This document shows positions 57,620 through 58,513 of a stretch of 64,000 nt of DNA, in pieces. The notes under the pieces were generated by a model. The model was not told the DNA's origin. It did no database searches and saw only the letters and a program-made list of their open reading frames with translations. Numbering within the stretch: position 1 is the first letter of the stretch; the number at the start of each line of letters is the position of its first letter. A program made the position numbers and the translations under genes. The DNA lies in NCBI RefSeq assembly GCF_003003035.1, contig NZ_PVTS01000006.1, positions 186,001 through 250,000 of the forward strand, written 5' to 3'. The DNA comes from Marinilabilia salmonicolor (GTDB lineage: Bacteria > Bacteroidota > Bacteroidia > Bacteroidales > Marinilabiliaceae).

Positions 57620-58439
57620 GAAACTCGGACAATCGACCATACAGCATGGACCTGAGAGTAACAGAATTTATCTCATGCACCTGTGGCCAACCGATTTTCC
57701 CGGAATTATTGACAAGATAGATACTTTGGCAAAGAGCAATGGTTATACCAAGCTCTTTGTCAAAGTTCCTTCAAAATACGGTGCCGCTTTCCGGATGGCC
57801 GGATATGAAACAGAAGCACTGGTCCCCGGCTTTTTCAATGGTGCGGAAGATGCACTATTTATGGTAAAATACAGGGATGCGGAGAGGAAAAACCCCAACC
57901 GGGAAGAGATGGAGGTCTTTCAGAATCTGCTGCTATCAGATGCAAACAGTGAGATACCGGAACTGGACAGCACACACATATTGAGACTGCTGACTCCTGA
58001 AGACACTCCTGAAATGGTAAAGGTTTTCTCCGAAGTATTTGAGAGTTACCCCTTCCCCATCTTCGACACGGAATTCCTGAAAAAGGAGATGAGCGAAGAG
58101 ACCCGCTATTTTGGTGTATTTCAGGATGGCAAACTGGTCGGCATCAGTTCGGCTGAGTGCAACGAATCGCTTAAAAATGCGGAAATGACCGATTTTGCGG
58201 TACTTCCCTCCCAACGTGGAAAAAAAATTGCCATACACCTCCTCAGAACCATGGAGGCGCACCTGAAAAACAATGGATTTAAGTCCTTTTACACCATTGC
58301 ACGTCTTAAATCTCCTTCCATGAATAAAACCTTTCTCAACAACGGATATCGATATACCGGCACACTGGTGAACAATACGCACATTGCAGGTCAGATAGAG
58401 AGTATGAATGTGTGGTATAAGCAGGCGTTGAAGGGTTGA
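57606..58439 (+). CDS. ablB: Putative beta-lysine N-acetyltransferase
   Basis: The 277-residue protein has an N-terminal domain (about 1-100, with [24 protein letters not shown]) and a C-terminal GNAT domain with [28 protein letters not shown] (acetyl-CoA loop) and [15 protein letters not shown]. This two-part layout and its position after a lysine aminomutase identify AblB, which acetylates beta-lysine on N6 to give the compatible solute Nε-acetyl-β-lysine. The ATG at 57606 overlaps the kamA end by 14 bases; earlier ATGs at 57549 and 57579 are possible. The TGA stop is the first unit of an 11-copy heptamer array. Confidence 0.93.
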
Positions 58440-58513
58440 GGGTTGAGGGTTGAGGGTTGAGAGTTGAGAGTTGAGAGTTGAGAGTTGAGGGTTGAGAGTT
58501 GAGGGTTGAGGAA
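58437..58513 (+). repeat. Eleven TGA heptamers starting at the ablB stop codon
   Basis: TGAGGGT (three), TGAGAGT and TGAGGGT variants continue with TGA every seven bases from 58437 to 58507. The first TGA is the stop codon. The array ends about 80 bases before the symporter gene. Confidence 0.95.

Follow-up and report, generated by a model that had tools for sequence, protein, structure and literature searches.

Heptamer arrays at the gene ends of the window

The window is a 64,000-nucleotide stretch of a Marinilabilia genome (G000, 4.79 Mb in 60 contigs; the window is G000:C6:186001-250000), in which several genes run into a tandem array of seven-base units at or just behind their stop codons. 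The relevant features are listed below in window positions; an asterisk marks the stop in protein ends.

12935..13069, strand not assigned: long AGTAGTC array of about 19 units, lying some way beyond the end of fetB
13152..13182, minus strand: array GAGAGTT spanning the fetB stop (13174-13176), which opens a series of four phased TGAs
13174..13947, minus strand: FetB-like permease (UPF0014, fetB), ending MGNVRGES* (TGA)
13964..13998, minus strand: degenerate heptamer array spanning the fetA stop (13985-13987), followed in phase by TGA, AGA, AGA, TAA
13985..14590, minus strand: FetA-like ABC ATPase (fetA), ending HEWGAAMEQEVRLGVQG versus QAWMKSVDELVAL in M. salmonicolor JCM 21150
18018..18058, plus strand: array TTAGARR after the TAA at 18015 and before rplT (TIGR01032), with six TAGs at 7-base spacing from 18020
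24337..25530, plus strand: signal peptidase I (second lepB, lepB2; TIGR02227), stop 25528-25530
25528..25565, plus strand: degenerate six-unit lepB2 array with phased TGA, TGA, AGA, TGA, TAG, TAG, the first unit being the stop
26628..26689, strand not assigned: two opposite-sense arrays meeting between convergent genes, on our reading each sense to its own gene
30356..30389, plus strand: degenerate TGAGCTA array after a 7TM-HD gene (28139-30334); a 77-nt array occupies the same place in M. salmonicolor JCM 21150
42675..43445, plus strand: LytTR response regulator (PF04397/PF00072), with its FKxWINQ* end and the place of its stop shared by five Marinilabilia genomes
43443..43477, plus strand: array TGAGRGW, whose first base is that of the response regulator stop, with five phased TGAs from 43443
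57549..58439, plus strand: ablB (beta-lysine N-acetyltransferase; TIGR03827, E 3.9e-91), last codons and stop array-derived to judge from the 3' ends of relatives
58432..58511, plus strand: ablB heptamer array RGTTGAG with 11 TGAs at exact 7-base spacing, the first being the ablB stop (58437-58439)

Most of these arrays had been recognized in the initial annotation, and they are present as it described them: the ablB stop is the first of 11 phased TGAs from 58437 and the response regulator stop the first of five from 43443, the fetA (13985) and fetB (13174) stops are units of arrays with phased triplets at both, and an array with six TAG units from 18020 follows the TAA at 18015. For lepB2, the stop is indeed the first of six units, but it lies at 25528 rather than at 25524 (ORF 24337-25530), and the array scores under the threshold used here. 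The TAG series from 18020 is out of phase with the TAA at 18015, the end of a putative rpmI. Head-to-head arrays of opposite sense, which form imperfect inverted repeats, are seen at 26628-26689 and, outside the window, at G000:C6:154885-155033 and 131515-131641, the last pair having a counterpart in M. salmonicolor JCM 21150. One irregular CTCAAC-type repeat (window 14944-15029) breaks the gene-end rule, as it occupies the divergent gap upstream of fetA and of the ORF at 15104; a degenerate array in M. salmonicolor JCM 21150 (G004:C30:3132-3164) lies near the corresponding place.

The relatives used for comparison are, by their probable names, M. salmonicolor JCM 21150 (G004), M. rubra (G001), Marinilabilia sp. 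UBA5340 (G002) and Thermophagus xiamenensis (G021). The window ablB is 92% identical to that of M. salmonicolor JCM 21150 and 87, 85 and 83% identical to those of three other Marinilabilia.

Period, placement and strand

Seven is the dominant period. Within the window, a match of 25 or more bases out of 28 is reached at 159 positions when the lag is 7 and nowhere at lags 3-6 or 8-12. A scan of 2.05 Mb of the 4.79 Mb (43%), containing 1406 genes called with our own script rather than a standard annotator, found 69 arrays at lag 7 with a score of at least 11, while lags 4, 5, 6, 8, 9, 10, 11, 12 and 13 gave 1, 1, 18, 6, 21, 3, 8, 25 and 1, the larger of these counts sitting at multiples of three. 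At a score of at least 20, there were 25 arrays at lag 7 against 0-3 at lags 4-6 and 8-13; lags 14 and 21 gave 24 and 13 because period-7 arrays must repeat there. This lag-7 scan, which the initial annotation had proposed, thus confirms that the arrays exceed chance. Their consensus heptamers are varied, with 38 distinct words in 69 arrays, many of them close variants, and AATTGAT, AGTAGTC, AGGGTTG, AGAGTTG and AAGAGCT the commonest. Their spread is uneven (variance/mean 2.05 per 20 kb), and contigs C4 and C6, with 530 of the 2050 kb, carry 40 of the 69. A dense cluster at G000:C4:23572-41082 includes arrays at 31395 and 31656 with 26 identical bases, and one at 30484 that is nearly the same, which hints at local duplication.

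A period of seven is not a universal rule, and we discarded that idea after scanning an 80-kb Thermophagus stretch (G021:C33, loci L252-L255), where 20 arrays have period 7 and 22 have period 8. Thus, the period can differ within the family. The period-8 arrays there include CCTATTAA and ATTAGGCC, and one lies at the end of ablB. No period-7 arrays reached the threshold in 80 kb of genome G011 or in 50 kb of E. coli. Nor is the TTGAGRR word special in the phylum, since backward-read controls match as often: three tandem copies occur in 14 of 395 Bacteroidota genomes, with the highest count (13) in G000, and the control, itself a heptamer-array pattern, occurs in 18 of 395 by our count; a looser form of the word has 14 matches in G000 against 16 for its backward control. 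A BLAST search of plasmids gave no match, an outcome that carries no information because of the low-complexity filter.

The arrays are concentrated at gene ends. After omission of three arrays at block edges and one inside a gene, 33 of 65 intergenic arrays in G000 lie within 30 nt of a stop, versus 10.1 expected from random intergenic placement (p 4.5e-11), whereas 11 lie within 30 nt of a start versus 10.8 expected. The proposed location at gene ends is therefore borne out, and the arrays are not equally frequent at starts. Thirteen of the 65 overlap a stop (4.6 expected), a count still without ablB, which the gene caller missed and which was added by hand to the counts near stops and starts above, to the strand test and to the pooled five-genome set described below but is absent from the orthologue table. 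In the other Marinilabilia, 8 of 15 arrays are near stops versus 2.2 expected (p 5e-4) and none is near a start (2.6 expected). Arrays of period 6 and 8-12 in G000 have no stop bias (7 of 36 near stops, 5.9 expected), and the 3'-end bias is also absent from the Thermophagus stretch at period 7 (3 of 20, 1.7 expected) and period 8 (2 of 22, 2.1 expected), where gene calling relied on a model built from G000, a genome of another genus. The boundary is visible in the mean lag-7 identity of 40 array-bearing genes from five genomes, chosen for an array start between -40 and +20: it climbs from 0.28 for bases 14-8 before the stop to 0.41 for the final seven, reaches 0.57 in the bin that opens with the stop and then holds at 0.70-0.73 for three bins, compared with 0.27-0.31 in other genes.

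Moreover, the arrays are oriented with the gene just finished, as had been suggested. In G000, purines make up over half of the sense strand in 28 of 33 gene-end arrays (background 0.50), G is commoner than C on that strand in 25 of 33 (background 0.46), and sense stops outnumber antisense stops in 23 of 33, with six ties and four in reverse (background 0.43). With stop-overlapping arrays removed, the purine bias persists in 16 of 19, and sense stops prevail over antisense stops by 12 to 3, with four ties (our count).

This sense-strand and 3'-end bias fits the main rival to the satellite interpretation developed below, namely that the arrays are working 3'-UTR elements, serving in mRNA 3'-end formation, stabilization or the docking of an RNA-binding protein with a seven-base footprint, for which the exact word would matter little. 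The tendency of arrays between convergent genes, on our reading, to be sense to their own gene points the same way, as does the hairpin with a T-run that we read at the array-less ablB ends of two relatives (L037 and L038). In a strict scan of the five genomes that are pooled below for stop usage, hairpins like those of intrinsic terminators are rarer at array ends (3 of 37) than elsewhere (288 of 1029), but a more sensitive scan, which sampled 700 of the 1029 control genes, gives 11 of 37 versus 299 of 700 (p 0.13), divided into 3 of 18 versus 201 of 490 for tandem pairs and 8 of 19 versus 98 of 210 for convergent pairs; both scans dropped gaps under 80 nt. Furthermore, most gene ends have no array (69 arrays for 1406 called genes in 2.05 Mb), and the seven annotated array-bearing genes of the window have no evident common function. 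We consider a 3'-UTR role rather unlikely on balance, and return to it below with the turnover of words.

Stop codons and the history of array sites

Stop codon usage is shifted beside the arrays. In a pool of five genomes (G000, G004, G001, G002 and G021, the first contributing 37 of the 48 array-gene pairs), the stop is TGA in 10, TAG in 8 and TAA in none of 18 genes whose stop lies inside an array, and TGA in 13, TAG in 10 and TAA in 6 of 29 genes whose array starts 0-40 nt after the stop. By comparison, TAA ends 628 of 1130 array-free genes with a gap of at least 60 nt (56%; p 5e-7 and p 2e-4, respectively); genes without a downstream neighbor were left out of these counts. The idea that the arrays supply the stop codon itself holds for the subset in which a unit is the stop (0 of 18 TAA) and fails for arrays that start after it: an array supplies the stop only where it reaches the gene end.

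The fixed phase relative to the stop that had been claimed for the arrays does not extend beyond this subset. In 17 of 18 overlapping cases the array runs in phase with the stop, but this is nearly automatic. Among 30 arrays starting 0-40 nt after the stop in the five genomes, 24 had a dominant stop phase, and these are spread evenly over the seven phases (4, 3, 3, 2, 4, 3 and 5), so that here the phase is random, the outcome that the initial annotation had itself named as speaking against its proposal.

Three units with a stop place one in every reading frame, and back-up translation termination had accordingly been offered as a function, one that selection would maintain. Units with sense stops are found in 29 of 33 gene-end arrays, against 21.2 expected from base-shuffled units, an excess that would favor such a role but is partly circular, as overlapping arrays must hold a stop. 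Once these are removed, only a mild excess remains (15 of 19 versus 11.9, z 1.8), and it is matched away from gene ends (25 of 35 versus 21.1, z 1.7) and on the antisense strand of the gene-end arrays (14 of 33 versus 9.0). In addition, some gene-end arrays are nearly stop-free (CATGGAG at C4:37791, TTGGGAG at C12:44547). Given the random phase of arrays that start after the stop and this mild, unspecific excess, back-up termination is unsupported, and we regard it as very improbable.

Comparison with relatives indicates that at ablB, and perhaps at other sites, the array postdates the gene end. AblB ends WYKQALKG* in the window and WYKQG* in M. salmonicolor JCM 21150, both with GGTTGAG units, and between species the array varies from 11 phased TGA units to one much shorter. 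Among the closer relatives, the majority (L036-L039, L042-L044) have a protein ending in WYKTV* with TAA or TAG, and that of L040-L041 ends YKIV*; Marinilabilia sp. Soudan_9 (L036) keeps TV* and continues with short GGTTGGC-type repeats, L037 and L038 have no array at ablB, and in Thermophagus the gene's own TAG lies, on our reading, within an 8-base array. These ends indicate that in ablB the array replaced the old gene end. The same apparently happened at fetA and fetB: the last residues of FetA (HEWGAAMEQEVRLGVQG*) look array-encoded on our reading, and FetB of M. salmonicolor JCM 21150 ends MGNVREKAP* (TAA) with no array, compared with MGNVRGES* (TGA) in the window. The response regulator and lepB2, to judge from conserved ends, keep their old ends despite the array. 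In five genomes the response regulator stops are TGA, TGA, TGA, TAG and TAA behind a conserved FKxWINQ*, and in four of the five (none in G003) heptamer-like sequence follows directly, with the words TGAGGGT (in two genomes), GGTTTTG and AAGGGTA, the last of them degenerate and, at a score of 6.2, under the threshold; for lepB2, the TGA is at the same place in M. salmonicolor JCM 21150.

Array sites are often conserved within the genus, while the words often change. For genes of C6, at an array score of 9, the orthologue of an array-bearing G000 gene end also has an array in 10 of 21 cases, versus 3 of 216 for array-free ends; the array-bearing ends give 4/4 (G004 C1), 3/7 (G004 C30), 2/7 (G001) and 1/3 (G002), and the array-free ends 1/42, 0/66, 0/54 and 2/54 in the same order. 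Orthologues were excluded if more than 25 residues at the end lacked a match or if identity fell below 45%, and an array lying between convergent genes may have been scored for each of them. Beyond the genus, neither G011 (array ends 0/4, array-free ends 0/13) nor G021 (0/2 and 4/24) showed kept sites. At one and the same site, TGAGTTG stands against TAGTGAA (gene ending C6:121500), CAGAAGG against CAGTGGT (a NUDIX gene) and TTGAGAG against TCAGTGG (fetB), and the unit also differs at the response regulator and ablB; the same or a similar word is kept between G000 and G004 in TTGAGGG (response regulator) and TAGAGAA (C6:155039). A 3'-UTR role would accommodate a site that is kept while its word changes, but it sits poorly with the very unlike words that share one gene end in different species, TTGAGAG and TCAGTGG in one case and TTGAGGG and GGTTTTG in another. 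In 24 arrays, identity between units of the same array drops from 81% at a distance of 7 bases to 73% at 35, and transitions account for 281 of the 461 mismatches between neighboring units. This points to gradual change along the array, as local copying with mutation would give.

Alternatively, array sequence may have moved between sites, by gene conversion or a mobile process, with words copied from neighbors. Arrays do cluster along the genome, as noted, and arrays less than 15 kb apart resemble each other in word more than chance would give (mean best match 4.60 of 7 versus 4.15, permutation p 0.004; 63 of 69 arrays, those under 25 nt dropped). However, near-identical copies at C4:30-32 kb may drive this effect, and gradual word change inside single arrays explains the swaps without transfer, which makes transfer improbable in our view.

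Origin of the arrays and relation to known repeats

We favor, with a probability of roughly 0.6, the interpretation that the arrays are a self-renewing heptanucleotide slippage satellite bounded by the coding region and that their link to stop codons is a by-product. The arrays would grow and renew by strand slippage, the presumed engine, in a short stretch just 3' of stop codons, with coding selection as the upstream limit, so that growth would come to rest where the gene ends or slightly within it. Most units hold TGA, TAG or TAA when read in the sense direction, and for this reason any array that extends to the gene end would provide the stop and displace TAA. Point mutation and local copying would spread one unit through the array while site and period persist; an array drifting between words at a fixed place and period would thereby account for the word swaps. 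The stop codon would be a soft border, served by any TGA or TAG in a unit; this would explain why some arrays begin right on the stop codon, why TAA is missing and why a few C-terminal residues have now and then been altered. This interpretation draws on the dominance of period 7, the bias toward stops, the rise in lag-7 identity across the stop, the loss of TAA, the replaced ablB end and the conservation of sites. Beyond ablB, an array arriving after the old stop is the presumed order of events, and the arrays would need no function. Of the three causes first proposed, a by-product of repeat growth fits best, though not in the form of outward growth from the stop, as the phases are even 0-40 nt after it.

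Several observations count against the satellite. Plain slippage gives no reason for a unit of 7 (8 in Thermophagus) rather than 5, 6 or 9. Between species that for the most part share 80-90% identity in aligned DNA, kept sites could also reflect selection. Arrays that start after the stop are phase-free and still avoid TAA, which calls for an older, unrecognized overlap or for seeding at TGA and TAG stops. Neutral tolerance would fill the whole gap from stop to promoter, yet the arrays crowd at the stop. Finally, the Thermophagus stretch showed no 3'-end bias, and no site conservation was seen in the two genomes from outside the genus (G011, G021). A more speculative idea, which we hold to be doubtful, is that certain 3' ends are inherited hot spots where copying in constant steps of 7 bases (8 in Thermophagus) rebuilds satellites, such that place and period are inherited and sequence is not, the step being set by some enzyme or transcription-termination event.

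Short tandem repeats of other kinds offer points of comparison with the satellite. The heptanucleotide repeats of cyanobacteria, including cases in Anabaena, are named STRR, and the simple repeats of phase variation have short units linked to variable traits. Like the cyanobacterial repeats, those of Marinilabilia form tandem arrays with several words in one genome; in Calothrix, three heptanucleotide repeats are on record (cited in PMC4692102). Phase-variation repeats have units of 1-5 nt (PMC4692102) and are slippage-prone like the Marinilabilia arrays, which differ in having units of 7 after ordinary genes. An excess of heptamers among bacterial simple repeats has been known since 2007, with polymerase slippage suggested as a cause, a hypothesis only (cited in PMC4692102).

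The closest likeness is to the heptamers GGGAATC of Xanthomonas and GGGGAYT of Nostoc, which are described as coding-strand repeats no more than 50 bp from the stop, stop overlap included, with 83% of repeat places kept between two species while length and sequence vary (Rehm et al. 2015, PMC4692102). The Marinilabilia arrays share with them, as there described, the period, a mostly intergenic, downstream position on the coding strand, overlap with stops, inverted pairs and conserved places (PMC4692102), and by the marks of that class they qualify in having 7-base tandem units near or overlapping the stop, a G-rich strand that is the coding strand (25 of 33) and positions kept within the genus. 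They differ in that the Xanthomonas and Nostoc work traced one G-quadruplex-forming word per organism, with four units preferred (PMC4692102), whereas Marinilabilia has 38 words in 69 arrays, mostly non-G-quadruplex. Four arrays, that of ablB among them, match a fourfold G3+N1-7 pattern, which would allow G-quadruplex elements of the sort considered for Xanthomonas and Nostoc, but the three-tetrad pattern that marks the class is found in only these 4 of 69 arrays and a two-tetrad pattern in six more, and common words such as AATTGAT are too G-poor. G-quadruplex formation was rejected as a common cause on this count and appears extremely improbable. Further differences are a second preferred place of the Xanthomonas and Nostoc repeats, upstream of ORFs and antisense (PMC4692102), where Marinilabilia has no enrichment at starts, and, compared with what is described for those repeats, the whole-word swaps at one site and the shift away from TAA stops in Marinilabilia.

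TAACTGA direct repeats, reported from Beggiatoaceae, cyanobacteria and five Bacteroidetes, supply stops to all three frames and, at 13 upstream genes, overlap the stop (MacGregor 2015, PMC4679880). Period 7, three-frame stops, some overlap with ORF ends and the presence of other heptamers beside TAACTGA in Bacteroidetes are common to both systems, as far as that account describes them, but in the Beggiatoaceae genome the repeats lie mostly just upstream of start codons (PMC4679880), compared with 11 of 65 arrays near starts in Marinilabilia (10.8 expected). AACTGAT units do occur inside AATTGAT arrays (C6:131563-131641), and most consensus words differ from TAACTGA. The initial annotation had taken the link of heptamers to stops and strand to be undescribed; since sense-strand, stop-overlapping heptamers were described in 2015 for Xanthomonas and Nostoc, and related cases for TAACTGA, that claim to novelty fails (Rehm et al. 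2015, PMC4692102; MacGregor 2015, PMC4679880). Among open-licence papers in PubMed Central, we found none that describes words being exchanged at conserved sites or TAA being depleted next to heptamer arrays. A genus with cultured members in which site and period are often kept, the word is swapped and the stops are shifted offers a system in which to separate repeat growth, drift and selection. It is also a warning to annotators that last residues and a stop codon may be repeat-derived, as in ablB. Under another phylum label, a 6.8-kb locus of a Kiritimatiellae MAG (L068) has four heptamer arrays at 5596-6781, of GGTTGAA, GAAGAGT, GTTGGAC and ACACTGA types.
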